A stretch of 53,653 bases of DNA from Anaerolineales bacterium (GTDB lineage Bacteria > Chloroflexota > Anaerolineae > Anaerolineales > Villigracilaceae), in the NCBI GenBank assembly GCA_016789365.1, contig JAEURH010000009.1, forward strand, positions 1 to 53,653. The letters run 5' to 3'. The position numbers were made by a program, and so were the translations under genes. The notes under the pieces were generated by a model. It saw nothing but the letters and a program-made list of their open reading frames with translations, was not told the origin of the DNA and made no database searches. Shown piece by piece: positions 1 to 14,198 of this stretch; position 1 is the first letter of the stretch; every line of letters starts with the position of its first letter.

Positions 1-399
1 CAGAAATTAACTGTGTCACGCTTGCAAAGAGATTTATCTGATTCCACAGTCCGCCGCACGTTTGGCTCGGCGTTAGGTCACAGCCTCCTAGCATGGACCA
101 ACTTCCAGCGAGGATTGAAGCGCATTGCTCCTGACGAAGAAAAACTCAAAGCGGAATTAAATGCTCATTGGGAAGTCATATCCGAAGGCGCACAAACTAT
201 CTTGCGTGCAGTTGGAAAATCTGATGCGTATGAAACATTGAAAGAAAAAACTCGTGGACAAGTGCTAACAGAATCAGAATATAAAACTTGGTGCAATTCA
301 ATTGATGTGGATGATGCCACAAGAAAAAAATTACAAAATCTTTCTCCAGAAACCTATATTGGTTTGGCAATTGAATTGACCGAAAAAATTGCTGGATAA
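1..399 (+). CDS. purB: Adenylosuccinate lyase, C-terminal part (5' end outside window)
   Basis: The frame is open from base 1 and reads into SRLQRDLSDSTVRRTFG, which matches the C-terminal domain of E. coli-type PurB (there SRLQRDLTDSTVLRN), so the gene starts upstream of the window. PurB removes fumarate from adenylosuccinate and from SAICAR in purine synthesis, in the cytoplasm. The later segments HWEVISEGAQTI and SPETYIGLAIELTEK also match the family end. Only about 132 residues are visible; the catalytic core lies outside. The first ATG or GTG inside the window is not the real start. The carA leader promoter begins 7 nt after its stop codon. Confidence 0.9.
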   Translation, partial: QKLTVSRLQRDLSDSTVRRTFGSALGHSLLAWTNFQRGLKRIAPDEEKLKAELNAHWEVISEGAQTILRAVGKSDAYETLKEKTRGQVLTESEYKTWCNSIDVDDATRKKLQNLSPETYIGLAIELTEKIAG

Positions 400-405
400 T
401 TTCTA

Positions 406-443
406 TTGACATATTTTGTGGGGATGGTAGAATACCGCCCAAT
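406..443 (+). promoter_or_regulatory. Promoter of the carA leader
   Basis: TTGACA (406-411), a 16-nt spacer and TAGAAT (428-433) form a near-consensus sigma70-type promoter. The predicted start point is about 440-441, only 3-4 nt before the ATG of the leader ORF at 444, so the leader transcript is probably leaderless. The 22 bases from the G before TAGAAT through the second base after the ATG are identical to the argG leader promoter at 5088-5109. Confidence 0.8.
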
Positions 444-560
444 ATGTTCAGACAACTTTGCACACGTCTTACCCGTCGTTCAAAACTAACTTTTCTCGAA
501 AGGTTGGAAGTTTTTGACTTGGCAGGTTCGATTCAGGATTTCATCGAAAACGTTAATTAA
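444..560 (+). CDS. Putative arginine leader peptide upstream of carA (38 aa)
   Basis: The small ORF begins MFRQLCTRLTRRSK and carries Arg at codons 3, 8, 11, 12 and 20, with tandem CGT CGT at codons 11-12. It ends just before an intrinsic terminator that precedes carA. The argG leader at 5105 has the same layout with Arg-Arg at the same codon numbers. There is no Shine-Dalgarno sequence, but the predicted transcription start lies 3-4 nt upstream, so leaderless translation is likely. By analogy with his, trp and leu leaders, slow translation of the Arg codons when charged tRNA-Arg is scarce would favour read-through into carAB. That it is translated is an inference. Confidence 0.6.
   Translation: MFRQLCTRLTRRSKLTFLERLEVFDLAGSIQDFIENVN
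482..514 (+). promoter_or_regulatory. Conserved hairpin just after the Arg codons of the carA leader
   Basis: CTAACTTTT (486-494) pairs with AAAGGTTGG (499-507) around a 4-nt loop, giving 9 pairs including two G-U. AAAA (482-485) and TTTT (511-514) can extend it past a bulge. It starts 6 nt after the CGT CGT codons, so a ribosome stalled there would cover its 5' arm. The argG leader has an equivalent hairpin with different bases in the stem, at the same distance. Confidence 0.6.
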
Positions 561-562
561 AA

Positions 563-592
563 ATAGCCCTCCTTTTGGAGGGTTATTTTTTT
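563..592 (+). terminator. Intrinsic terminator (attenuator) before carA
   Basis: AGCCCTCC, a TTTT loop and GGAGGGTT are followed by a T-rich tract. It lies after the leader ORF and 26 nt before the carA start codon, between the only strong promoter and carA, which fits an attenuator better than a terminator for purB. Confidence 0.8.
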
Positions 593-618
593 GTCTGCAA
601 CCATGAAAGGATTACCAC

Positions 619-1743
619 ATGACGGCAACATTAGTTTTAGAAGATGGCACAATTATTGAAGGCAAAGCTTTTGGTGCAAAAACCGATGCGGTGTTTGAAT
701 TGGTATTCAACACAAGCATGACAGGTTATCAAGAAATTTTGACAGACCCGTCTTATCGTGGACAAGGAGTCTTGTTTACGGTTTCGCACATTGGCAATGT
801 GGGAATCAATTTAGAAGATGATGAATCGGCAAAGCCACAAGTTTCAGCGGCGGTGATTCGTTCGTTGAGTCCAGTGGTATCGAATTGGCGTTCGGCACTT
901 TCATTATCTGAATGGCTTTGTCAACATGATATTCCCGGCATTAGTGGTTTGGATACACGCTATTTGACTCGCAAACTTCGTGATGGTGGTACACAAAAAG
1001 CGGCTCTTTCTACTAAGGGGACACCTGTTGATGTGCTATTGAACATGGTACACACTTGGAGCGGACTCGATGGAAGAGACATGGTCAAGGAAGTGACTTG
1101 TGACGAGTCCTATCATTGGGTGGATGATGAAGGAAGCAAATGGGTGGAACAGAAGGCAAATGGACACAAGAAATTAAATGTTGTTGCTTATGATTTTGGA
1201 ATTAAAGAAAATATTCTCCGACACCTTTCAAGTTATGACGCGAATGTGACGGTTGTTCCAGCAGATACAACTGCAGAAGAAACATTGGCATTGAAACCCG
1301 ATGGAATCTTTTTATCCAACGGACCTGGTGACCCAGCAGGTTTGCCTTATGCGGTGAAAGCAGTTAGCGAATTAATTGAAAGCAACATTCCCATGTTTGG
1401 CATTTGTCTAGGTCATCAACTAATTGGCAGAGCATTGGGAGCAAATACACATAAACTTAAATTTGGTCATCACGGCGGGAATCATCCTGTGCAACATTTA
1501 CCAAGTGGAGAAGTCTTAATCACCGCACAGAATCATAATTATTGCCTCACCGAAGGGGAATTAAATAAAAACGAAGTTGAAATCACATATAAAAGTTTGA
1601 ACGATGAATCACTTGAAGGTTTAAGAATGAAGAATAAACCAGTTTTCAGTGTGCAATTTCATCCTGAGTCTGCACCTGGTCCGCATGATGCACATGATAT
1701 TTTCAGCGAATTTTTTGAAATGATTGGGAATAAAAATAAATGA
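619..1743 (+). CDS. carA: Carbamoyl-phosphate synthase small (glutaminase) subunit
   Basis: CarA hydrolyses glutamine and passes ammonia to CarB, making carbamoyl phosphate for arginine and pyrimidines. The 374 aa are normal for the family. The N-terminal domain (about 1-150) has the conserved [15 protein letters not shown]-like segment, here [16 protein letters not shown]. The class I glutaminase domain (about 187-370) has the nucleophile Cys263 in GICLGHQL and the His348/Glu350 pair in QFHPES. An AAAGGA ribosome site sits about 9 nt before the ATG. The stop overlaps the carB start by 4 nt (ATGA), which suggests translational coupling. Expression is probably set by the attenuator-like leader upstream. 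Confidence 0.97.
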
Positions 1744-4700
1744 AACGAACAGACCTTCACACTATCCTTGTCCCAGGCTCTGGAGCCATCGTCATCGGTC
1801 AAGCCGCGGAGTTTGATTACTCTGGCACGCAAGCCGTCAAAGCATTGAAAGCAGAAGGATATCGAGTTGTGTTGGTTAATTCAAATCCAGCAACGATTAT
1901 GACTGACCCTGAAATTGCAGATGCAACTTATATCGAACCATTAACACCCGAAGCATTGGAAGCCATTATTGCACAAGAAAAACCAGATGCGATGCTCCCT
2001 ACAGTTGGCGGACAAACTGGTTTAAATCTCGCGCTGGCATTAAGTGAAAATGGCGTGCTTGAAAAATATGGCGTGCAATTAATCGGCGCGAATCTCAACG
2101 CTATCAAAGCCGCTGAAGATCGCATGTTGTTCCGCGAGACGATGCAAAAGAATAATATCCCTGTCCCGCGTGGTGGAGCCGCTTATTCCTTGAAAGAAGC
2201 GGAAGAACTTGTCAAAGAAACGGGCTATCCAGTTTTAGTGCGTGCATCATTTGCGATGGGTGGAACAGGTGCATCGTGGGTATATGAATCCAATCAACTT
2301 GCAGAAGCTGTGCGTAGTGCAATTTCTGAATCGCCCATTGGGCAAGCATGGTTGGAAGAATCTGTTTTGGGTTGGAAAGAATATGAACTCGAAGTGATGC
2401 GCGATAAAAAGAATAATTTTGTCGTCGTGTGTTCAATTGAAAATCTTGACCCAATGGGCGTGCATACGGGCGATAGCATCACTGTTGCCCCTGCACAAAC
2501 GTTGACTGACCGCGAATATCAAATTTTGCGTGACCTTGCTCATCAAGTGTTATCTGCAGTGGGAGTTGAAACAGGCGGCTCAAATGTTCAGTTTGGTGTT
2601 GACCCAAAAACGGGTCGTGTCGTCGTTATCGAAATGAATCCGCGTGTGAGTCGTTCGTCTGCGCTGGCATCGAAGGCAACTGGTTTTCCAATTGCAAAAC
2701 TCGCCGCGCTCGTCGCGGTGGGTTACACCCTCGATGAAATCACCAACGACATCACCAAACAAACCAAAGCCGCGTTTGAGCCTTCGCTCGATTATGTCGT
2801 TGTGAAAATTCCGCGTTGGGCGTTTGAAAAATTTCCAGGTGTTGACCCGACTCTTGGTCCGCAAATGAAATCGGTTGGTGAAGCGATGGCATTAGGAAGG
2901 ACGTTCCCTGAAGCATTGAACAAAGCGATTCAATCATTAGAAATTGGCGTGGATGCATTAGACGCTTCTGGACCTAACAAAGAGTTGCTCACTGAACCCG
3001 AAACATTATCTTCACTGAAAATTCCTCGAGCCGATAGATTATTCCGAGTGTATCGTGCGATTCAACAAGGCATGTCCTTAGATAAAATATCAAATGTCAC
3101 TGGTTATGATTTATGGTTCTTAGCGCAAATGAAAGAGATAGTGACTAGAGAATTAGAGATTAGAACTTGCAAGACCGAAGACGAACTCAAACTAGTATTG
3201 CGTTCTGCCAAACAAATGGGATTTGCAGACTCACATATTGCACGGCTCTTAAATTCATCCTTCATCCTTCATCATTCATCATTTAGAGAACTACGAAAAT
3301 CACTTGGCATATTACCTACATTTCAACGAGTCGACACCTGCGCTGCGGAATTTGAATCACAGACACCTTATCTTTATTCTGCTTATGAAATGGATGATGA
3401 ATCACGACCAACAGATAAACAAAAAATATTAATCCTTGGTGGTGGACCGAATCGGATTGGTCAGGGAATTGAATTTGATTATTGTTGTTGTCAGGCGGCG
3501 TTTGCATTATCGAAGATGGGATATGAAACCATTATGTATAACTGCAATCCAGAGACCGTATCCACAGATTACGATACTGCGGACAGATTATATTTTGAGC
3601 CGTTGACTCTTGAACATGTATTAAACGTGATTGACAGAGAAAACCCAATCGGAGTCATCGTGCAATTCGGCGGGCAGACTCCGTTGAATCTCGCGGCGGG
3701 ACTCGAAGCGGCGGGAGTCAAAATTTTAGGGACGTCTCCGCATGCCATTCAACTTTCGGAAGATAGAGAAGAGTTTGCCAAGTTACTAAAAGAATTAGAT
3801 ATTCCACAACCTGAAAATGGAATCGCGCGTTCGTTGGAAGAAGCCAGAGAAGTTGCTCAACGAATCGGCTATCCTGTTTTGGTGAGACCATCTTTTGTTT
3901 TGGGTGGCAGAGCCATGGCGTTAGTGGATTCCGAAACTCATTTGGCAGGATTCATTCAAGGGGCGATTGAGGCGGCTCCTAATCAACCAATATTGATTGA
4001 TAAATTTATGGAAGATGCTTTTGAAATTGATGTCGATGCTTTATCCGATGGTGAACGAGTTGTGGTTGGCGCGGTGATGCAACACATCGAAGAAGCAGGT
4101 GTCCACTCAGGAGATGCGGCGTGTGTTCTTCCTCCGTATAAGGTCAGTGCCTATCATCAAAGCATCATGCGTGGATATACCGAACAATTGGGTCTTGCAC
4201 TTGGAGTCAAAGGCTTGATGAATGTGCAGTTCGCGTTGAAAGATGAAGTTGTATATGTCTTGGAAGTGAATCCGCGTGCATCGCGAACCGTTCCGTATGC
4301 CAGCAAAGCCACAAACTTAAACTTAGCCTACACAGCCGCGCAAGTGATGGCAGGCAAAACATTGAAAGAATTAAATGTAATGGAAGAACCGCGCGTGGAT
4401 GGTTTCTTCATCAAAGAAGCAGTTCTGCCATTCAAGAAATTACCTGGCTCCAGTTCACTGCTTGGACCTGAAATGCATTCGACTGGTGAAGTGATGGGAC
4501 ATGCTTCGCAGTTTGGTCATGCTTTTGCAAAAGCACAAATCGCGGCAGGGACAGGTTTGCCACAAAATGGTTCGGTGTTGATTACCGTCAATGATTATGA
4601 CAAAGGCGCAGGTTTGAAATTTGCACGTGACATGCATCGTTTGGGATTCAAAATCTATGCCACGCCTGGCACTGCTTATATGATTGATAAAGCAGGTTTA

Positions 4701-4973
4701 CCTGTTGAAGTTGTTGAAAAAGCACAAGATGGTTCCACACAAATTGTGGATTTGATTCGCGCGGGAAAAATTCAATTGGTGTTGAATACGCCGTTGGGTC
4801 CACATGCACATACAGATGGTAACGAAATTCGCAAAGCGGCGATTGCGATGAATGTCCCCTTGCTTACAACTCTTTCTGCGGCGAGTGCGGCAGTGTCAGC
4901 AATTCAAGCCATGCGAAAGAAAGAATTGAAATATCGAAGTTTGCAGAGCCATTTTGAGGTAACGGATTTATAA
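1740..4973 (+). CDS. carB: Carbamoyl-phosphate synthase large subunit
   Basis: CarB makes carbamoyl phosphate from bicarbonate, ammonia and two ATP. The 1077 aa contain two ATP-grasp halves (about 1-400 and 550-930), an oligomerisation region between them, and a C-terminal MGS-like allosteric domain (about 945-1077). [18 protein letters not shown] and [15 protein letters not shown] mark the starts of the two halves. In the middle domain, residues 505-515 read [11 protein letters not shown] and are encoded by tandem TTCATCC/TTCATCA units. E. coli CarB has about 8 ordinary residues there and this protein has 12, so a simple DNA repeat has invaded a surface segment without breaking the frame. 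It overlaps carA by 4 nt. Confidence 0.97.
3252..3284 (+). repeat. TTCATCC/TTCATCA tandem repeat inside carB
   Basis: Short units of TTCATCC and TTCATCA run in frame and encode [11 protein letters not shown]. They lie between IARL and RELR of the CarB oligomerisation domain, a position where other CarB proteins have no such sequence. Confidence 0.7.
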
Positions 4974-5051
4974 AGCGGATAAACGGACTTTGTAGCAGAC
5001 TCACGGATGAAAACGGATTTGGTTTGTGACGGTATTACCCAAATGGGTAAT
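4974..5051 (+). repeat. CGGAT-rich repeat remnant and weak hairpin after carB
   Basis: The stretch has several AAGCGGATAAACGGA and ACGGATGAAAACGGAT words, resembling the spacer at 13081-13121. At its end ATTACCC (5034-5040) and GGGTAAT (5045-5051) form a 7-bp hairpin without a good T-tract, perhaps a weak terminator for carAB. I see no gene here. Confidence 0.45.
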
Positions 5052-5066
5052 CTTTCCTCAAAAGCA

Positions 5067-5104
5067 TTGACACATTTCACATTAGTAGTAGAATACCGCC
5101 CAAT
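5067..5104 (+). promoter_or_regulatory. Promoter of the argG leader
   Basis: TTGACA (5067-5072), a 16-nt spacer and TAGAAT (5089-5094) match the carA leader promoter in both boxes and spacing. The predicted start is about 5101-5102, again 3-4 nt before the leader ATG at 5105. From the G before the -10 box to two bases past the ATG, 22 bases are identical to the carA leader. Confidence 0.8.
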
Positions 5105-5215
5105 ATGTTAATCAAGTTTGCGTTACCGCGTACTCGTCGTCCGAAGCCAGCTTCTGTTGAGAAGGTTGGTTCTTTTTGTTTGGATGATAAGGTAATGAAC
5201 GCAAATATGTGCTAA
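5105..5215 (+). CDS. Putative arginine leader peptide upstream of argG (36 aa)
   Basis: The ORF reads MLIKFALPRTRRPKPASVEK and on to a TAA at 5213. Arg codons are CGT at positions 9, 11 and 12; the tandem Arg-Arg at codons 11-12 matches the carA leader exactly, while the rest of the peptide differs. This conservation of Arg codon position but not of sequence points to a regulatory leader peptide rather than a functional protein. It lacks a Shine-Dalgarno site and is probably read from a leaderless mRNA. A terminator follows before argG. Confidence 0.6.
   Translation: MLIKFALPRTRRPKPASVEKVGSFCLDDKVMNANMC
5147..5169 (+). promoter_or_regulatory. Conserved hairpin just after the Arg codons of the argG leader
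   Basis: CCAGCTTCT (5147-5155) pairs with AGAAGGTTGG (5160-5169) around a 4-nt loop, 8 pairs with one internal mismatch or bulge. It begins 6 nt after the CGT CGT codons (5135-5140), the same distance as in the carA leader. AAGGTTGG in the 3' arm is common to both leaders, while the 5' arms differ and still pair. Confidence 0.6.
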
Positions 5216-5243
5216 GTAAATACACACATACAAGTCCACACAA

Positions 5244-5280
5244 ACAGCCCGCTTTCTCAAAGCGGGCTGTTTTTTATTTT
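5244..5280 (+). terminator. Intrinsic terminator (attenuator) before argG
   Basis: ACAGCCCGCTTT, a CTC loop and AAAGCGGGCTGT form a 12-bp perfect stem followed by TTTTTATTTT. It lies between the leader ORF and argG with no other promoter visible after it, so argG transcription must read through it. Confidence 0.88.
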
Positions 5281-5317
5281 GACCTCACCCCAACCCCTCT
5301 CCTAATAAAGAGAGGGG
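5281..5317 (+). repeat. REP-like palindrome between the attenuator and argG
   Basis: GACCTCACCCC leads into CCCCTCTC (5294-5301) and GAGAGGGG (5310-5317). The same element, with the same GACCTCACCCC lead, is found in frame inside argE at 13341-13378. Confidence 0.7.
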
Positions 5318-5338
5318 AGAAAAAACAAGGAGAAAATT

Positions 5339-6610
5339 ATGAATCCGAAATCAAAACAGCAAATAAAGAAAATTGTCTTAGCGTATTCAGGCGGGTTAGA
5401 TACATCTGTGATTGTGCCGTGGTTAAAAGAAAACTATGGCTGTGAAGTGATATGTTTTTGCGCCGATATTGGTCAGGGCGATGAAGATTTATCAGGTTTG
5501 GAGAAGAAAGCCCTTAAGAGCGGAGCGAGTCAGTTCGTCATCCACGATATGAAAGAAGAATTTGCGTCTGAATATCTTTTTCCAATGTTGAAAGCGGGGT
5601 CTGTCTATGAACACAAGTATTTATTGGGCACATCGGTTGCCCGTCCTCTTATTGCAAAACATTTAGTAGAAGTTGCACATCAATTTGGTGCTGATGCTGT
5701 TGCACATGGTGCGACAGGCAAAGGCAATGACCAAGTCCGTTTTGAATTAACCGTTATGGCGCTTGACCCACGATTAAAAATTATCGCTCCGTGGCGTGAA
5801 TGGGATATTCGTTCGCGTGAAGATGCGTTGAATTACGCCGCAAAACATAATGTGCCTGTTACTGCAACAATTAAATCAATTTATTCACGCGATTCAAATC
5901 TTTGGCATCTTTCACATGAAGGTGGCTTGCTCGAAGACCCATGGAATGAACCCGAAGAAGCCATGTATCAAATGTCCACTTCGCCAGAGAACGCACCTGA
6001 TGAAGCCGAATATGTTGAGATTGAATTTGAAAGTGGTAACCCTGTTGCAGTGAATGGAGAAAAACTTTCACCAGCAAAAATTGTACAAAAATTAAATGCA
6101 ATTGGTGGCGCGCATGGTATTGGACGTGTTGATTTAGTTGAGAATCGTTTGGTCGGAATGAAATCACATGGCGTGTATGAAACGCCGGGTGGCACGATTC
6201 TTTTGTTTGCTCATCGTGAACTCGAATCACTTGTGTTGGATAGAGAGACTTTGCATTTCAAAGAAATGGTCGCCGTCAAATATGCTGAACTTACTTACAA
6301 CGGTTTATGGTTTACACCATTGCGCGAAGCGATTGATGCGTTTGTAAATTCCACACAAGGTCCTGTCACTGGCGTTGTTAAATTAAAACTTTATAAAGGC
6401 AACATCATCACAGCTGGTAAAAAATCTCCGTTTAGTTTGTATCGCGAAGATTTTGCCACCTTTGGTCAAGAAGATGTGTACGACCAAAGTCATGCTGAAG
6501 GATTTATTCGATTGTATGGATTGAGCATGAAAGTCCGCGCGTTGAATGGGCTTCCTGTTTCAGGTCTTGATATGCCTAAGCCTGATTATTCAAAATTCAA
6601 GAGAGATTAG
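5339..6610 (+). CDS. argG: Argininosuccinate synthase
   Basis: ArgG joins citrulline and aspartate with ATP to make argininosuccinate, the penultimate step of arginine synthesis. The 423 aa begin with the ATP-binding loop [10 protein letters not shown] (about residues 14-23), typical of the N-type PP-loop family, and carry the conserved [13 protein letters not shown] (about 122-134). AAGGAG lies 6-7 nt before the ATG, which fixes the start; longer readings upstream overlap the terminator and repeat. It is the first structural gene of a long arginine operon controlled by the leader at 5067-5280. argH follows after 1 nt. Confidence 0.97.
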
Positions 6611-6611
6611 C

Positions 6612-7976
6612 ATGACAAAACTTTGGGGCGGACGCTTCGCCCAATCACCCAATCAACTTGCTTTTGAACTCAACGCTTCCCTATCCGTTGATAAACGCAT
6701 GGCGCTTCAAGATATTGATGGAAGCCTGGTGTGGGCAAATGCGATACACAAAGCAGGTATTCTTTCGGATAAAGAACACGCTTCAATCTCGCTTGGGCTG
6801 GATACTGTTCGTAAAGAATTTTCTTCGGGACAGTTTTCTTTCGCCGCTTCGGATGAAGATATTCACACCGCTATCGAAAGAAGATTAACTGAATTAATTG
6901 GTGATGTGGCTGGCAAACTTCATACTGGCAGAAGCCGCAATGACCAAGTGGCTACTGATTTTCGCTTGTGGATGTTAGGCGCGATTCCTGAATTGAAATC
7001 CGCAGTGCAGAATTTACAAACTGCATTCGTTGAACAAGCCGAAAAAGCAAATGAAATCGTGATGCCAGGCTATACCCACTTGCAACGCGCTCAACCGATT
7101 TTATTATCACATTGGTGGTTGAGTCATTATTGGTCGCTACAAAGAGATGTTGAACGATTGCAAGACTTAACCAAACGAGTTTCTGTTCTGCCATTAGGAA
7201 GTGGCGCGTTAGCAGGTGTTCCATTTGAAATTGACAGAATCGAATTAGCAAAGTCACTTGACTTTGCAGAGGTATCACAAAACAGCATTGATGGAGTCTC
7301 TGATAGAGATTTTACGGCTGAATATTTATTCTGTACCACGATAATTGGAATCCACTTAAGTAAACTCGCCGAACAAATTGTTTTGTTTACAACTTCTGAG
7401 TTTGGATTTTTTGAATTAGCAGATGCTTTTTCAACAGGTTCAAGTTTGATGCCACAGAAAAAGAATCCTGATGTGTTTGAGTTAACAAGAGGAAAAGCAG
7501 GAACATTATTAGGTTTGTTAACTGGTCTATTAGTCACGCTCAAAGGTTTACCTTCTACATACGATAAAGATTTACAAGAAGATAAAGCACCTGTTTTTCA
7601 AGCGACGGATACTTTGTTAGCAATTCTGCCAGTCATTGCTGAAGCTTTGAGGACAATCACTGTAAAAGCAGAACGAATGCGAAATGCAATTGATTCATCT
7701 ATGCTGGCAACGGATTTGGCTGATTATTTGGTTGAAAAAGAAGTTCCATTTCGAAAAGCGCATGAGATTGCAGGAAAAGTTGTCCGTGAGGCGGGTGAGA
7801 ATAATGTGTCATTAGAAAAAATGCCGCTCGAAGCGTATCAGGCTTTATGTCCAGCGTTTGAAGCGGATGTATATCAAGTGTTTGACCCGATGAAATCGGT
7901 TGAAAAAAGAAATGCGATTGGCGGCACGAGTCTCCAATCTGTAAAAAATCAAATCAAAAAAATTAAAGGAGAGTAA
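6612..7976 (+). CDS. argH: Argininosuccinate lyase
   Basis: ArgH splits argininosuccinate into arginine and fumarate. The 454 aa start MTKLWGGRFAQ, the usual N-terminus, one base after the argG stop. A longer in-frame reading from 6546 overlaps argG and is not used. Family marks are AGKLHTGRSRNDQVATD, PGYTHLQRAQPILLSHW and the signature loop GSSLMPQKKNPD containing the catalytic Ser. The next gene, lysW, follows 5 nt after the stop, so the genes are cotranscribed. Confidence 0.97.
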   Translation: MTKLWGGRFAQSPNQLAFELNASLSVDKRMALQDIDGSLVWANAIHKAGILSDKEHASISLGLDTVRKEFSSGQFSFAASDEDIHTAIERRLTELIGDVAGKLHTGRSRNDQVATDFRLWMLGAIPELKSAVQNLQTAFVEQAEKANEIVMPGYTHLQRAQPILLSHWWLSHYWSLQRDVERLQDLTKRVSVLPLGSGALAGVPFEIDRIELAKSLDFAEVSQNSIDGVSDRDFTAEYLFCTTIIGIHLSKLAEQIVLFTTSEFGFFELADAFSTGSSLMPQKKNPDVFELTRGKAGTLLGLLTGLLVTLKGLPSTYDKDLQEDKAPVFQATDTLLAILPVIAEALRTITVKAERMRNAIDSSMLATDLADYLVEKEVPFRKAHEIAGKVVREAGENNVSLEKMPLEAYQALCPAFEADVYQVFDPMKSVEKRNAIGGTSLQSVKNQIKKIKGE

Positions 7977-7981
7977 TAAAA

Positions 7982-8152
7982 ATGAGTACTGTAACCTGCC
8001 CTGAATGTGAAGCCCAGATTGAGTTAGCCGCTGGCACTGAAGTTGGTGAAATTTTGGTCTGCTCGGATTGTGGTGTGGATTTGGAAGTGACTGCGCTTGA
8101 GCCTGCCACTGTTCAACTTGCACCTATGGAACAAGAAGATTGGGGTGAATAG
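7982..8152 (+). CDS. lysW: LysW amino-group carrier protein (56 aa)
   Basis: The small acidic protein starts MSTVTCPECEAQIEL, has two Cys pairs (CPEC and CSDC) that should bind zinc, and ends EDWGE, the hallmark C-terminus of LysW. In this family the side-chain carboxyl of the final Glu is joined to the amino group of glutamate (or 2-aminoadipate), which protects and carries the intermediate through ArgX, ArgB, ArgC, ArgD and ArgE. It is too short for usual ORF length cut-offs. It sits between argH and argX with a GGAGAG sequence about 10 nt before the ATG. Its presence explains why no acetyl-transfer enzyme (argA or argJ) is in the cluster. Confidence 0.95.
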   Translation: MSTVTCPECEAQIELAAGTEVGEILVCSDCGVDLEVTALEPATVQLAPMEQEDWGE

Positions 8153-8158
8153 TTTTTT

Positions 8159-8185
8159 GTAGAGGTGAGGTGAACTCGCCCCTAC
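8159..8185 (+). repeat. Short palindromic repeat between lysW and argX
   Basis: GTAGAGGTGAG and CTCGCCCCTAC form an 11-bp stem with two imperfect positions around a GTGAA loop. It fills the spacer of the operon. The ribosome site GGAG for argX begins one base after it. It has no T-tract and does not look like a terminator. Confidence 0.5.
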
Positions 8186-8196
8186 GGAGATAACTT

Positions 8197-9069
8197 ATGC
8201 AGAGAAGACTCAAGATAGGTGTTCTGTATTCGCGTGTGCGCGTGGAAGAGAAATGGATTTTCGGCGCACTTGAAAAACGTGGCATTGATTATGACCGATT
8301 AGATGATCGTGCGATTCATTTTGATTTGAATAACCCAACACCGTGGCAATCGTATGATGCTGTGTTGGAAAGAAGCATTAGCTATAACAGTGGATTGTAT
8401 GCATTGCGATTGCTAAACGCATTTGGTGTGCCAACCGTAAACACTGCATCGGTTGCAGAAATTTGCGGTGATAAGTTAATGACCAGCGCCGCACTTGCAC
8501 GAGATAACGTTCCGCAACCACATAACATCACTGCATTTACACCTGAAGCCGCGTTAGAAGCGATTGAAGCATTTGGTTATCCTGTTGTGTTGAAACCGGT
8601 CGTTGGTTCATGGGGAAGATTGCTGGCAAAAATCAATGACCGTGATGCGGCAGAAGCTGTGTTGGAACATAAATCTACACTTGGGTCTGTGCAACATTCT
8701 GTTTTTTATATTCAAGAATATATTGAAAAACCTGGACGCGATATTCGTGCAATTGTGATTGGTGACAAAGTGTTGACGGCAATGTATCGCAAGTCTGAGC
8801 ATTGGATTACAAACACAGCACGCGGTGGTGAAGGTGAGTTATGTCCCATTACACCTGAGATTGAAGATTTATGTTTGCGAGCTGCAAAATCTGTAGGTGG
8901 TGGTGTGTTAGCTGTAGATTTGGTTGAACATCCTGAAAAAGGATTAGTGGTAAACGAAATTAATCACACCATGGAATTTCACACGATGCAACCTGTGAGT
9001 GGAATTGATATTGCAGGCGAGATTGTTGAATACACGGTTAGTGCAGCGAAAGAAAAGGTAGAAGCATGA
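8197..9069 (+). CDS. argX: LysW-glutamate (or -aminoadipate) ligase, ArgX/LysX
   Basis: This ATP-grasp ligase of 290 aa joins an amino acid to the C-terminal Glu of LysW. It begins with [20 protein letters not shown] and has the conserved GGSWGRL-type loop (here [14 protein letters not shown]), [19 protein letters not shown] and the metal-binding [14 protein letters not shown] near the end. The family uses glutamate for arginine synthesis or 2-aminoadipate for lysine synthesis. The neighbours are all arginine genes, so the glutamate role is inferred; dual use cannot be excluded from sequence. GGAG lies 9 nt before the ATG. The stop overlaps the next ATG by 4 nt. Confidence 0.92.
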
Positions 9070-10037
9070 ACACGCAATTATTACAACCTATTTTGAATCA
9101 GGAATTTGTGATGAAAAAAGATTTTCTGCATATTGCTGATCTTTCTCCAGTGGAGATACAAGATTTATTAGACCTTGCGATTGCTTTGAAGAAAGAATAT
9201 TTCAACGGTGGGAACCCGCCTGTGTTGAAAGGCAAAGCATTGGCAATGGTCTTTCAAAAACCAAGTTTGCGAACGCGCGTTTCTTTTGAAATGGCGATGC
9301 AACATTTAGGCGGTCATGCCATGTATCTTTCGCCTGCAGAGATTGGACTTGGTCAACGTGAATCAATTGCAGATGTGGCCAGAGTTTTATCAGGTTATGT
9401 GCAAGGCATTATGGCGCGCGTTTTTGACCATGAACATATTGTCGAGTTAGCCAAATGGGCGAGTGTGCCTGTGATTAATGGTCTCACTGATTACAACCAC
9501 CCATGCCAAGCATTGGCAGATGCATTAACCATTCAAGAAAAATTTGGTACAGCCAGAGGCTTGAATGTCACGTATATTGGTGATGGAAATAATGTCGCAG
9601 TGTCATTGATGCATGTGTGTGCCAAACTCGGTTGGAATTTTACGATTGCAAATCCAGCTGGGTATGAAATCGCTCCAAGTGCAGTTGAAATTGCAAAGCA
9701 AATCACACCTGAAACAGGTGCAGAGATTTCTTTTTATAACAATCCACATGATGCAGTTAAAGATGCGGATGTGATTTATACCGATACGTGGACTAGCATG
9801 GGTCAAGAAGAAGAAACAGCCAAACGTGAAGAAGCATTTGCAGAATATCAGGTCAATCATCGGTTAGTCAGCGAAGCGAAGAAAGATTCAATTGTCATGC
9901 ATTGTTTGCCTGCACATCGTAATCATGAATTGACAGATGAAGTTGCTGATGGTTCGCAATCTGTAATTTTTCCTCAAGCGCATAATCGTTTGCATGCACA
10001 AAAAGCAATTTTGGCACGCGCCTTTGGAGTTGCATAA
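9066..10037 (+). CDS. argF: Ornithine carbamoyltransferase
   Basis: ArgF transfers the carbamoyl group to ornithine, giving citrulline. Seen motifs are the carbamoyl-phosphate loop [11 protein letters not shown], the [11 protein letters not shown] segment and HCLPAHR, as in true ornithine carbamoyltransferases. The start at 9066 overlaps argX by 4 nt (ATGA) and gives 323 aa. A start at 9111 ([12 protein letters not shown]) has an AGGAA site 8 nt upstream and fits the usual family N-terminus, so it is an equally good choice. The gene sits inside the LysW block, between argX and argC, and consumes the product of carAB. Confidence 0.95.
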
Positions 10038-11071
10038 TGACGAGTGTATCGATTATCGGTGGTTCGGGATACGGCGGTGGTGAGTTAATAAGATTGTTGT
10101 TGGGTCATCCAAATGTTCAAATCAAACAAGTCACATCGCGTTCGCGTGTGGGTGAGTATGTCTATCAAACACATCCAAATTTAAGAAAACGAACGCAATT
10201 GAAATTTAGTGACCCATCTCAACTTGAACCTGTTGATGTTTTGTTTTTGGCACAACCACATGGTCAGGCGCAACATAATATTGAAGCATATGCAAAACTT
10301 GGTACAAAAATTATTGACCTTGCGGCAGATTTCCGTTTGCGTGATGCAAATTTTTATGAGCAATGGTATGGTGAAAAACATGCTGCGCCTGAATGGTTAA
10401 ATAAATTTGTATATGGTTTACCTGAATTGCATCGTGCTGAAATGGCGAATGCAAATTACATCAGTGGTGTGGGGTGTAATGCAACGGCGAGCAACTTGGC
10501 TTTGTTACCTTTAATCAAAGCAGATTTGTTGGATTTATCATCCTCGATTTTTATTGAAATTAAAGTGGGTTCATCTGAAGGTGGTGCTGAAGGAAATTCT
10601 GGTTCGCTTCATGCGGAACGTGCTAACGTCATTCGCACTTTCTCTGCATTTGGTCATCGCCACACTGCGGAAGTGATTCAAGAAATGGGAGTCAAAGATA
10701 TTTCATTGACGATGACTGCTGTGGACTTGGTGCGTGGCGTTTTAGCAACGGCTCATGCTAAGGTGAAAGCTGGTGTGGCGACAAAAGATTTGTGGAAAGC
10801 CTACAGAGCAGTTGCCAATGAAAACCCATTCATTCGCGTGGTCAAAGAACAACGTGGCATTTATCGCGTTCCAGAGCCAAAGATTTTAGCTGGTTCAAAT
10901 TACGCCGATTTAGGTTTTGAATTAGATGAAAGCAATGGTCATATTGTAGCGATGTGTGCGATTGATAATCTAATGAAGGGTGCTTCTGGTTCTGCGGTGC
11001 AATGTATGAATTTGATGATGGGTTGGGATGAAACTCTCGGACTTGATTTTGCAGGGTTACATCCAATTTAA
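10037..11071 (+). CDS. argC: LysW-glutamyl-phosphate reductase (ArgC/LysY)
   Basis: The enzyme reduces the LysW-bound acyl phosphate to the semialdehyde with NADPH. The 344 aa begin with a Rossmann loop SIIGGSGYGGGELIRLL (GxGxxG type) and have the catalytic Cys147 in SGVGCNATAS. The Cys-Asn-Ala version of this motif is that of the ArgC/LysY branch. It overlaps the argF stop by one base (TAATG). In the context of lysW, argX and argB the natural substrate is LysW-glutamyl phosphate. Confidence 0.94.
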   Translation: MTSVSIIGGSGYGGGELIRLLLGHPNVQIKQVTSRSRVGEYVYQTHPNLRKRTQLKFSDPSQLEPVDVLFLAQPHGQAQHNIEAYAKLGTKIIDLAADFRLRDANFYEQWYGEKHAAPEWLNKFVYGLPELHRAEMANANYISGVGCNATASNLALLPLIKADLLDLSSSIFIEIKVGSSEGGAEGNSGSLHAERANVIRTFSAFGHRHTAEVIQEMGVKDISLTMTAVDLVRGVLATAHAKVKAGVATKDLWKAYRAVANENPFIRVVKEQRGIYRVPEPKILAGSNYADLGFELDESNGHIVAMCAIDNLMKGASGSAVQCMNLMMGWDETLGLDFAGLHPI

Positions 11072-11080
11072 GGATATACA

Positions 11081-11902
11081 ATGAGTGATGAATCTTCGAT
11101 TACAGTTGTAAAACTTGGTGGCACAGAAGGTGTAGATTTTTCTGCGATTTGTGCAGATGCAAAAGAATTATTAGGACAAGGCAAACGCCTTGTTTTTGTG
11201 CATGGTGGTTCTGCAGAAGCGAATGCACTTGGCGAAGGCTTGGGTACTCCGCCAAAGATGATTACTTCACCTTCTGGTTATACATCACGATATACAGATA
11301 GAAAAACTTTAGAAATCTTTCTGATGGCAGTCAATGGAAAAGTCAATTCATTGTTGACAGAACAATTACAAATGTTGGGAGTCAATGCTTTTGGATTATG
11401 TGGACTCGATGGCAAGTTAATGCAAGCCACCAGAAAAGATTCCATTCAAAGCATTGAAAATGGCAAACGAAAAATTATTCGTGATGATTACACAGGAAAG
11501 ATCGAAACGATTAATAGCGAATTGTTGTTAATGCTGTTGAATGCTGGTTATCTTCCAGTGATTGCGCCTGTGGCTGTTAGCGAAAAGGGTGAAGCCTTAA
11601 ATGTAGATGCAGACCGTGCGGCGGCGATGGTTGCATCTGCTTTGAAAGCATCGAATCTTTTATTGCTTACAGCAGTGCCTGGGTTGATGAAAAATTTTCC
11701 AGATGAATCAACACTCATTCGGCAACTGCCGCAGAGTCAACTCCCAGCGGCGAGTGAAGCGGCGCAAGGTCGCATGAAGAAAAAAGTTTTAGGTGCAGAA
11801 GAAGCGTTGAAAGGCGGCGTGAGTCGCGTCATCATTGCAGATGGTCGAATTCAAAATCCAATCTCAAATGCCTTGGCAGGAAATGGAACAGTGATTCAAT
11901 GA
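11081..11902 (+). CDS. argB: LysW-glutamate kinase (ArgB/LysZ)
   Basis: A member of the amino acid kinase family (273 aa) that phosphorylates the side-chain carboxyl of LysW-bound glutamate. It begins with VVKLGGTEGVDF, a variant of the KxGG nucleotide-binding start, has the glycine loop FVHGGSAEAN, and later LNVDADRAAAMVA. These are LysZ-like rather than like acetylglutamate kinase (there HGGGPQI). AAGGAT lies close upstream. Its end overlaps argD by 4 nt. Confidence 0.93.
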   Translation: MSDESSITVVKLGGTEGVDFSAICADAKELLGQGKRLVFVHGGSAEANALGEGLGTPPKMITSPSGYTSRYTDRKTLEIFLMAVNGKVNSLLTEQLQMLGVNAFGLCGLDGKLMQATRKDSIQSIENGKRKIIRDDYTGKIETINSELLLMLLNAGYLPVIAPVAVSEKGEALNVDADRAAAMVASALKASNLLLLTAVPGLMKNFPDESTLIRQLPQSQLPAASEAAQGRMKKKVLGAEEALKGGVSRVIIADGRIQNPISNALAGNGTVIQ

Positions 11903-13080
11903 ACACAAATGAAATTATCGAAATCGAAAATAAATATACATCGGGGACATATGCGAAACAGTCGCTTGTGATTGTGCGTGGACAAGGTGCTTCGTTATTT
12001 GATGCGGATGGAAAAGAATATTTGGATTGTTCATCAGGACATGGCGTTGCGAATCTCGGTCATGCTCACCCGAAAATTGCTGAGGCAATCTATAAGCAGG
12101 CGAATACGCTGATAACTCTTTTTGAGTCGTTTCCAAATGACCAACGCGCGATGTTGATGAAAAAAATTACCGCGTTAGTTCCTGGATTAGATAGAGTTTT
12201 TCTTTGTAATTCTGGAACTGAATCTGTGGAAGCGGCATTTAAATTTGCACGCATCTCAACTGGACGAAAAAATATTGTCGCGGCAATGCGCGCATTTCAT
12301 GGACGAACGTATGGTTCATTATCTGCGACATTCAATAAAAAATATCGTGAAGGTTTTGAACCGCTTGTGCCTGGGTTTAGTCATGTATCTTATAACAATA
12401 TTGAAGCGTTAGAGAAAGCGGTCAATGAAGAGACTGCTGCTGTGATTTTAGAAGTGGTGCAAGGCGAAGGTGGCGTGTACCCTGCGACGATTGAATATGT
12501 TCAAGCTGCACGAAGAATTTGTGATGAACGTGGTGCGTTGTTGATTGTGGATGAAATTCAAACAGGCTTTGGTCGCACTGGAAAATTTTTTGCTATTGAA
12601 CATTTTGGAATCACACCTGATTTATTGTGCTGTGCAAAGTCATTGGCAGGTGGTGTTCCAATGGGTGCTGTATTGATTGGAAAAAATGTTAAGAACTTAA
12701 CTCCAGGCGTACATGGCTCAACATTTGGTGGAAATCCGCTTTCATGTGCGGCTGCAAATGCGGCATTGGATGTTATTAAAGAAGAAGATTTAGTTGGGCA
12801 GTCAGAAGCGAAGGGGAAATACTTGATGGAAAAATTGAAAGCGATTCAATCTCCAAATATTCGTGAGATTCGTGGAATGGGTTTGATGGTTGGAATTGAG
12901 ATGAAACAAAAAGTTGCTCCTTATATCAAAGCGTTACAAGAGGCGAATATCATCGCTTTGAATGCGGGAATGACGGTCGTTCGTTTGTTGCCTCCGTTGG
13001 TGATTACTTACGAACAATTGGATCATTTAGTAGATGCATTGACCGAAGTTTTGGTGATGGATTTAAGTTCAGCAGAGTAG
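11899..13080 (+). CDS. argD: LysW-glutamate-semialdehyde aminotransferase (ArgD/LysJ)
   Basis: A class III PLP aminotransferase (393 aa) that converts the LysW-bound semialdehyde to LysW-ornithine, using glutamate as donor. CNSGTESVEAAFKFAR is the phosphate-binding region, Asp218 in IVDEIQTGFGRTG binds the pyridine ring, and Lys247 in CCAKSLAGG forms the Schiff base. It is the usual length for the family and overlaps argB by 4 nt (ATGA), which supports coupled translation. Confidence 0.94.
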   Translation: MNTNEIIEIENKYTSGTYAKQSLVIVRGQGASLFDADGKEYLDCSSGHGVANLGHAHPKIAEAIYKQANTLITLFESFPNDQRAMLMKKITALVPGLDRVFLCNSGTESVEAAFKFARISTGRKNIVAAMRAFHGRTYGSLSATFNKKYREGFEPLVPGFSHVSYNNIEALEKAVNEETAAVILEVVQGEGGVYPATIEYVQAARRICDERGALLIVDEIQTGFGRTGKFFAIEHFGITPDLLCCAKSLAGGVPMGAVLIGKNVKNLTPGVHGSTFGGNPLSCAAANAALDVIKEEDLVGQSEAKGKYLMEKLKAIQSPNIREIRGMGLMVGIEMKQKVAPYIKALQEANIIALNAGMTVVRLLPPLVITYEQLDHLVDALTEVLVMDLSSAE

Positions 13081-13121
13081 CGGATTGCCTTCGGCAAAGC
13101 GGATAAGCGGATTGGAAACGG
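13081..13121 (+). repeat. CGGAT-type spacer repeat between argD and argE
   Basis: The spacer is built from CGGATTGCC, TTCGGCAA, AGCGGATAAGCGGATT and ACGGATG words and contains the small hairpin TTGCC-TTC-GGCAA. The same words occur after carB at 4974-5020, so this is a dispersed repeat. Confidence 0.5.
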
Positions 13122-14198
13122 ATGAGTGATTTTGATACTTTAATTGGTTTGGTCTCACGATACAGCCCTTCGGGAAGTGAACGAAGGGCTGTTGAATGGT
13201 TGGTAGAGCGAATGAAATCGCTTGGCTATGATGAATCTTTTATAGATGAAGTAGGCAATGCAGTTGGCGTGATAGGGAAAGGGGAAAAGCAAGTTATTTT
13301 GTTAGGTCACATTGATACGGTGTCTGGTGAAATTAAAGTTGACCTCACCCCTAACCCCTCTCCTGAGAGGAGAGGGGAAGTTGTATATGGGCGTGGTTCT
13401 GTGGATGCGAAAGGTCCACTGGCGTGTTTCGTGGATGCAGTTGCAAATGTAGGCATCAAAGATGGATGGCAGTTTGTTGTGATTGGAGCAATAGAAGAGG
13501 AAAGAGATTCGGAAGGGGCAAGATTTGTTGTCAATCAATATAAACCAGACTTTGCAATTATCGGTGAGCCAAATCATTGGGACAGAATCGCACTTGGATA
13601 TAAAGGAAGTGCTTGGGCGAATGTGATTGTTAAACGCGAGCAGACTCACACAGCCAGTGGAGAAGAAACTGCGGCAGAAGTGGCTGTGGATGTTTGGTTG
13701 AAAATCAAAGCGTATGTGAATGGATTCAATGAAGATAAGAAAAGAGTATTTGACCAGTTGTTATTGACTTTGCGCGGAATTGATTCAAGTCAAGATGGTT
13801 TTGAGCAACAAGCAACTCTTAAGGTTGGAGTCCGTTTGCCTGTGGAAGTATCACCAGAAGATTGGTATCAACGTTTGAAAGAAATTGTTGGAGATGCAAA
13901 TGTTGAACCAAAAGGTTTTGCAATCCCAGCATGGGCATGCGAGAAAAACACTCAGCTAGTACGAAGTTTCTTAAGCGGAATCAGGTCACAAGGTGGCGAG
14001 CCGCGTTTCGTCTATAAAACAGGAACAGCGGATTTGAATATCGTCGCACCTGTGTGGAAATGTCCAGCAGTTGTGTATGGTCCAGGAGATTCTACATTAG
14101 ATCACACACCGAATGAACATATTGAGTTAGAAGAATATGCAAAGTCAGTGATTGTGTTGAGCGAAACTTTGAAAAAATTAACATCCCCCACACAGTGA
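13122..14198 (+). CDS. argE: LysW-ornithine hydrolase (ArgE/LysK)
   Basis: A zinc-dependent M20-family amidase (358 aa) that frees ornithine from LysW. Metal ligands are seen as His63 in GHIDTV, Asp95 in GRGSVDAKGPLA and the Glu pair in GAIEEERDSEG; Asp65 and Glu125 are the likely catalytic pair. Residues of about 74-86 (DLTPNPSPERRGE) are encoded by the REP-like palindrome at 13341-13378 and have no counterpart in the family, which reads almost directly from HIDTV-GEI to YGRG. The insertion keeps the frame and lies on the loop between the two metal motifs. It is the last gene of the operon and ends 2 nt from the convergent XRE gene. Confidence 0.92.
   Translation: MSDFDTLIGLVSRYSPSGSERRAVEWLVERMKSLGYDESFIDEVGNAVGVIGKGEKQVILLGHIDTVSGEIKVDLTPNPSPERRGEVVYGRGSVDAKGPLACFVDAVANVGIKDGWQFVVIGAIEEERDSEGARFVVNQYKPDFAIIGEPNHWDRIALGYKGSAWANVIVKREQTHTASGEETAAEVAVDVWLKIKAYVNGFNEDKKRVFDQLLLTLRGIDSSQDGFEQQATLKVGVRLPVEVSPEDWYQRLKEIVGDANVEPKGFAIPAWACEKNTQLVRSFLSGIRSQGGEPRFVYKTGTADLNIVAPVWKCPAVVYGPGDSTLDHTPNEHIELEEYAKSVIVLSETLKKLTSPTQ
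13341..13378 (+). repeat. REP-like palindrome inserted in frame in argE
   Basis: GACCTCACCCC leads into CCCCTCTCCT (13355-13364) and AGGAGAGGGG (13368-13377). It is nearly the same sequence as the intergenic copy at 5281-5317. The translated repeat gives LTPNPSPERRGE. Confidence 0.8.

Follow-up and report, generated by a model that had tools for sequence, protein, structure and literature searches.

A putative arginine-sensing transcription attenuator upstream of argG in an Anaerolineales bacterium, and related leaders in its genus

The window analysed here, a whole stretch of 53,653 nt from an Anaerolineales contig, carries argG (argininosuccinate synthase; PF00764, PF20979) at 5339..6610, followed by the remainder of a putative operon (6612..14198) whose genes are probably co-transcribed and bear putative names based on their Pfam domains: argH (6612-7976), a LysW-type carrier (7982-8152), a LysX-type ligase (8197-9069), argF (9066-10037), argC (10037-11071), an argB-like amino-acid kinase (11081-11902), an argD-like class-III aminotransferase (11899-13080) and an argE-like M20 peptidase (13122-14198). 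All genes and leader features given here with window coordinates lie on the forward strand. The leader in front of argG is real, its described features having been verified on the sequence. Its promoter (TTGACA - 16 nt - TAGAAT, 5067..5094) has 10 nt between the -10 box and the ATG of a 36-codon open reading frame (ORF; MLIKFALPRTRRPKPASVEKVGSFCLDDKVMNANMC, 5105..5215), a spacing that is 14 nt in one of 20 same-genus argG leaders and 8-10 nt in the other 19; provided that transcription initiates at the usual distance from this promoter, the ORF would be nearly leaderless. The control codons CGT ACT CGT CGT (Arg-Thr-Arg-Arg) occupy 5129..5140, and the tandem Arg codons among them are contained in a lower helix (5136..5188), in which GUCGUCCGAA (5136-5145) pairs with UUUGGAUGAU (5179-5188); the helix thus runs on below the hairpin into the Arg codons, which corrects the picture given in a preliminary description of this DNA. 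Region 1 (CCAGCUUCU, 5147..5155) forms the 5' arm of hairpin 1:2, and its partner, region 2 (GAGAAGGUUGG, 5159..5169), can pair instead with region 3 (CCCGCUUUCUC, 5248..5258), the 5' arm and loop of the intrinsic terminator 3:4 (5242..5279; stem-loop 5242-5272 and a T-rich tail), giving a scheme of region 1 with 2, 2 with 3 and 3 with 4. A T-rich tract conserved in the alignment lies 3' of hairpin 1:2 (5170..5183); part of it lengthens the antiterminator on folding, and it is possibly an RNA polymerase pause site.

A second leader precedes carA (619-1743, recognised by its Pfam domains), which is followed by an ORF (1740-4973) read as carB from its position and size. Here too a TTGACA - 16 nt - TAGAAT promoter (406..433) has 10 nt between the -10 box and the ATG, and the 19-base stretch running from this box to the ATG is identical in the two leaders; the ORF (MFRQLCTRLTRRSKLTFLERLEVFDLAGSIQDFIENVN, 444..560) contains the control codons CGT CTT ACC CGT CGT (465-479), and hairpin 1:2 (486..507; region 1 486-495, region 2 498-507) and a terminator stem-loop (560..589; region 3 567-576) follow. 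The distance from ATG to CGTCGT is 30 nt in both leaders (5105 to 5135 for argG, 444 to 474 for carA), that from CGTCGT to the upper hairpin is 6 nt (CCGAAG and TCAAAA, respectively) and the loop size is 4 nt (RNAfold), all as first described. The identical geometry that had been claimed from these values holds for the 5' half but not for the 3' half, where leader stop and region 3 are about 31 nt apart in argG and 5 nt apart in carA. The two peptides had been held to agree only in R-T/L-R-R and a Lys; they have more in common than this, via shared nucleotides of region 2 and the T-rich tract. None of 200 shuffles of either leader folds as well as the leader itself (z -4.84 for argG and -3.49 for carA). 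Near-leaderless short ORFs with tandem Arg codons number three in the window, one of them without a terminator, and the two with a downstream terminator are the argG and carA leaders; the full combination was found in none of 40 Markov-simulated windows searched on both strands, which contained 52 such ORFs with tandem Arg. A GC-rich ACCGCCC lies between -10 box and ATG (5095-5101 and 434-440) and recurs in many of the genus's Arg, Thr, His and Lys leaders. A REP- or MITE-like element, CTCACCCC(T)AACCCCTCTCC, occurs at 5284 and 13344 of the window and also 3' of the terminators in loci L003, L004 and L116.

Conservation was assessed in 20 of 21 same-genus argG loci (L021, which begins 6 nt before argG, was excluded, and the argG matches in genomes G007, G011 and G034, for which there was no locus at that stage, lie outside this alignment). 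CGTCGT is present in all 20 leaders and always in frame, at ORF nucleotide 30 in 19 and at nucleotide 42 in the remaining one, and the reading frame of region 2 is 0, 1 and 2 in 3, 4 and 13 leaders; since this frame is not kept, the later peptide appears to be under less selection than the Arg codons and the RNA. The four helices of the form combining 1:2 and 3:4 are 90-98% paired over the 20 sequences. For the hairpins and terminator 95.5% of cells are paired and six pairs are changed on both sides, values reached by 0 of 500 shuffles in each case; with the partners slid by one column as a control, 55.7% of cells are paired and there are still four doubly changed pairs versus six. The lower helix has 95.0% of cells paired, and over the tandem Arg codons three of its pairs vary, on the 3' side only, to G-U or U-G (G-C 12/G-U 8, U-A 11/U-G 9 and G-C 11/G-U 9). 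In terminator 3:4, 97.1% of cells are paired and 4 of 12 pairs are changed on both sides. The seven core 2:3 pairs, scored over 29 argG and carA leaders, are paired in 92.6% of cells, and 21 cells are doubly changed; neither value is attained by any of 2000 shuffles, and with argG and carA shuffled apart they are attained by 16 and 43 of 2000, a modest signal. At one 2:3 position, for example, G000 has G-U and G004 has A-U where 26 others show G-C, and another position varies among A-U, G-C, G-U and C-G. MAFFT alignments place region 2 of G000, G004 and G012 one column off, and hairpin covariation is undercounted there.

The main antiterminator pairs region 2 (5159-5169) with the terminator 5' arm (5248-5258). 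It replaces one proposed earlier, between UUGUUUG (5176-5182) and CAAACAG (5241-5247): both segments are present and do pair, as an outward extension of the main helix and in a shifted register (5175-5179 with 5240-5244), but they are not its core. RNA 5152-5260 of the window folds as an antiterminator in which 5157-5171 pair with 5246-5260 and, as an extension, 5175-5185 with 5234-5244 (z -2.26; 5 of 200 shuffles fold as well), and when region 1 is omitted from the scan, region 2 finds its best partner at a site overlapping the terminator 5' arm in 28 of 29 transcripts. Folding of complete leaders is uninformative about switching, as even a stalled ribosome leaves the terminator ahead of 2:3 in 26 of 29, and was replaced by folding of RNA that ends just before region 4. 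As the completed RNA favours the terminator, the choice has to be kinetic and must fall during transcription, as is general for attenuators of the trp/his class. The switch was modelled in 20 argG and 9 carA leaders, with the ribosome edge 8-23 nt beyond the start of the A-site codon and with footprint and length varied over 18 settings. When the ribosome was placed on the Arg codons, 2:3 was predicted in 24-29 of the 29 leaders (18-20 of 20 argG, 6-9 of 9 carA); with the ribosome beyond region 2, which is then covered, in none; and with no ribosome, in 4-11. In these models the position of the ribosome on the control codons is thus predicted to toggle between 1:2 and 2:3, the logic of a trp-type attenuator.

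The argG leader combines hallmarks of an attenuator, namely clustered cognate codons, an intrinsic terminator before the first gene and an antiterminator that uses its 5' arm. With ORF, codons, terminator, alternative pairings and conservation all observed in the sequence, we consider it very probable that this leader controls the argG operon as a trp/his-type, ribosome-mediated transcription attenuator by sensing charged Arg-tRNA; start site, stalling, termination and the response to arginine are the parts that we infer. RNA polymerase would initiate a few bases 5' of the leader AUG, with the ribosome trailing behind it. When Arg-tRNA is short, the ribosome would stall on CGT-ACT-CGT-CGT, unwind the lower helix and cover region 1, leaving region 2 free to pair with region 3 before region 4 exists, and transcription would continue into argG. 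When Arg-tRNA is ample, the ribosome would cross region 2 and be released 23-54 nt before region 3 (the range over the 20 argG leaders), and the terminator would form. The earlier reading of argG and carA as units under like arginine control is supported.

The 3' half of the carA leader (window 444-590), with its stop codon at the base of the terminator and a conserved ENVN, does not fit a simple attenuator. Of 15 same-genus carA loci, nine have a leader and were used; the gap from leader stop to region 3 is 5 nt in six of these, 10 nt in one and 15 nt in two, and the C-terminal ENVN of the peptide is kept in the six with the 5-nt gap. Region 3 is so near the leader stop that a ribosome ending there would cover the terminator, a difficulty from which the argG leaders, with gaps of 23-54 nt, are free. 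In folds ending before region 4, three to five of the nine carA leaders form 2:3 even without a ribosome. Among the other carA loci, L041, L045, L048 and L049 have no visible leader, L043 is cut by a contig end, and the leader of L044 (genome G015, which shows no argG match) has decayed, having lost the Arg codons and region 2 and kept the promoter and terminator. In seven loci from other families no carA leader was recognisable.

The preliminary description had proposed a covariance-model search for further copies, and the model (R1) was run on 41 same-genus genomes, giving 36 matches of at least 45 bits. Of the 27 matches above 100 bits, found in 26 genomes, 25 precede an intact argG start, one lies at a contig end and one, in G036, precedes an argG start whose frame is broken after about 19 codons. 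The nine matches of 45-70 bits comprise eight before carA and one (G009) before an argD/lysJ-like gene, and the eight of 31-37 bits comprise one before carA, four unrelated terminators and three before ilvD (one identified by HMM, two by reading) that follow Leu/Ile/Val-rich leaders. Those weaker matches that were inspected, a subset, were terminators. Offered 22 Arg leaders from other families and phyla and nine non-Arg leaders, R1 detects 10 of the former and two of the latter (L117, L262) at E up to 1; the wider spread therefore rests on searches for an ORF and a terminator. An ORF with an Arg run and a terminator precede argG in 25 of 29 tested loci of the same family, in 12 of 17 of other families of the order and, outside the order, in 3 of 17 Chloroflexota loci (rest of the class 0 of 6, rest of the phylum 3 of 11), against a background of 36 of 1540 random stretches of the same loci, some of which overlap leaders. 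This test took the 26 loci nearest to the query from a wider search matching 207 genomes, and three loci were excluded as too short. In the four same-family loci that failed it (L010, L024, L026, L155) the leader is present by eye with an imperfect terminator stem. Among 80 named loci the combination was found in 3 of 10 from Chloroflexota, in 2 of 2 from Neomarinimicrobiota (L190, L197) and in one of the remaining 68 (L235), a likely chance case in which ORF and terminator overlap; some of these 68 carry little upstream DNA. In both Neomarinimicrobiota loci the leader ORF before argG is Arg-rich, possibly through transfer of the operon head.

Leaders of similar build precede genes for other amino acids. 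The promoter pattern GTAGAATNNNGCC-N(2,5)-ATG has 42 matches in 37 same-genus genomes (4 for the reversed control), and of the 30 that were read, 4 are no leaders and 26 are. Twelve of these belong to argG and six to carA; three upstream of aspartokinase have Thr runs, one upstream of hisG has a His run, one upstream of chorismate mutase is aromatic, and three upstream of a gene of the isopropylmalate/homocitrate synthase family are Lys/Arg-rich. Ten of the other 12 matches lie at known leaders by position. Another promoter pattern gave 17 matches (6 for the reversed control), of which 5 are leaders and 12 are not. The genome to which the window belongs itself has an aromatic leader before the gene for chorismate mutase and a putative DAHP synthase ORF, a Thr leader before aspartokinase, a Leu/Ile/Val leader before ilvD and a Met-rich leader (MKFKSTFPMVPMTMAMQMEMFNCAKWKA) with a terminator before metG, encoding methionyl-tRNA synthetase (L081, C371:10212). 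The hisG leader MNLIFAHKHHVHHHIPPKDREILCAYLN (L284, G036:C145:19662) has complementary regions 2 and 3 (p 0.01); the Leu/Ile/Val-rich ilvD leaders L116, L117 and L120 have a longer distance from -10 box to ATG, with strong 2:3 pairing in L117 and L120. EAKAKRKP or EARAKRKP is encoded before the synthase family gene in L262, L266 and L273, leaders that we tentatively regard as sensing lysine, as the family search cannot separate homocitrate from isopropylmalate synthase. For 13 further leaders (12 non-Arg, one Arg), the best partner of the terminator 5' arm beats shuffles in 8 (p 0.05 or less) and does not do so in L070, L262, L266, L081 and L113, the third Arg leader, in which 2:3 pairing before the argD/lysJ-like gene of G009 is not significant (p 0.375). 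Whether one near-leaderless promoter-leader cassette (GTAGAATNNNGCC-ATG) has been reused across pathways in this Chloroflexota lineage, with swaps of the codon run (Arg, Thr, aromatic, His and probably Lys) setting the specificity of a translation-coupled attenuation network that replaces amino-acid repressors, seems to us evenly balanced; the promoters of the Met and branched-chain leaders are less similar to the cassette.

Other explanations of the argG leader have points in their favour. It is very unlikely, in our view, that the leader encodes an arginine-sensing arrest peptide, with arginine and the nascent peptide, rather than a shortage of Arg-tRNA, stalling the ribosome as in the fungal arginine attenuator peptide or TnaC. 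The genus does conserve the segment ALPRTRRPKP well, and the fungal peptide, encoded by a short upstream ORF before a carA homologue, does respond to arginine; it acts, however, through arrest by a specific nascent peptide and has no terminator. In other families of the order the peptide differs and the Arg run alone persists (ARRSSRRS, RARRCSRRA, KPRARRIF), the frame is not kept after this run and sister leaders carry runs of other cognate codons, all of which speaks against an arrest peptide. Slightly less probable still is a short ORF and terminator that merely dampen expression, with the Arg codons serving helix pairing and no amino acid being sensed. The tandem Arg codons do lie in a conserved helix, and as 59 of 61 Arg codons in the argG leaders are CGT (97 of 320 in window genes), their conservation may be partly structural. 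The helix nevertheless leaves the complementarity of regions 2 and 3 unexplained, the first Arg codon, which lies outside it, is kept in all 20 argG leaders, and Thr, His, Met, aromatic and branched-chain codons precede matching genes.

We give least weight of all, close to none, to a tRNA- or metabolite-binding riboswitch such as a T-box. T-boxes in Chloroflexi and arginine T-boxes in other bacteria are reported in the available parts of PMC3766115 and PMC1262725, respectively, but a T-box covariance model has no match at E up to 1 and no Rfam family reaches its gathering score in window 1-8200, where the best plus-strand score of the Rfam amino-acid leaders (Trp_leader, Thr_leader, Phe_leader) is 28.3 bits for Thr_leader, with 55 needed; the conserved core is, moreover, an ORF with in-frame control codons.

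The argG leader resembles the classical attenuators of trp, his, leu, thr, ilv and phe genes (Proteobacteria, some Actinobacteria and Firmicutes) in its ORF with cognate codons and its 1:2, 2:3 and 3:4 pairings, and differs from them in its arginine specificity, occurrence in Chloroflexota, nearly leaderless ORF and lack of a match to an Rfam leader family. Published surveys, cited here from their available parts, list attenuator specificities for His, Leu, Thr and Trp, plus Ile/Val and Phe (PMC3766115), leader peptides from Proteobacteria and Actinobacteria and newly from Firmicutes (PMC2965389), His attenuators in Firmicutes (PMC9413887), a Cys-codon leader before cysS (PMC8632094) and no arginine element in Actinobacteria (PMC1262725), and a survey of leader genes rates its own Chloroflexi data as too sparse (PMC4833913). 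Three further systems share single features with those described here, as far as the accessible text of each paper goes. In ORF34 of the Salmonella speF leader two consecutive Arg codons likewise sense arginine via ribosome pausing, but that leader belongs to an inducible ornithine decarboxylase and works through Rho termination, RNase G decay and access to a ribosome-binding site (PMC6386406), whereas the argG leader has an intrinsic terminator before arginine biosynthesis genes. The Pseudomonas carA leader also has a leader peptide and possible attenuation, which is ascribed to pyrimidines, with arginine control placed at the transcriptional level (PMC4997734). In Sinorhizobium meliloti the trpL attenuator leader RNA starts at the ATG of the leader ORF, much as predicted for argG, but concerns tryptophan and an alphaproteobacterium (PMC7298713). 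Searches of full-text literature, outside which most subscription papers lie, brought up neither an arginine-codon attenuator acting on arginine biosynthesis genes nor a description of a leader-peptide attenuator in Chloroflexota, the accessible part of PMC3896937 included. The type of mechanism is already known from trp and his; its arginine specificity and its occurrence in Chloroflexota are without match in the literature searched.

The sister leaders constitute a natural codon-swap series within one genus, in which the contributions of codon identity, near-leaderless initiation and hairpin geometry to attenuator specificity could be tested, and leader codons may be of use in assigning genes to pathways, for instance the argD/lysJ-like gene that follows an Arg leader in G009. 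In well-studied bacteria arginine biosynthesis is tied to the ArgR/AhrC repressor. The ArgR domain (PF01316) was found in none of the 41 same-genus genomes, including 27 good drafts (the draft to which the window belongs is 86% complete), and a control search was positive in 9 of 14 reference genomes. The arginine regulon without a repressor that had been proposed from the argG and carA leaders agrees with this result, though its two units understate a wider set of leaders. In an order of Chloroflexota, an attenuator appears to replace the ArgR/AhrC repressor.
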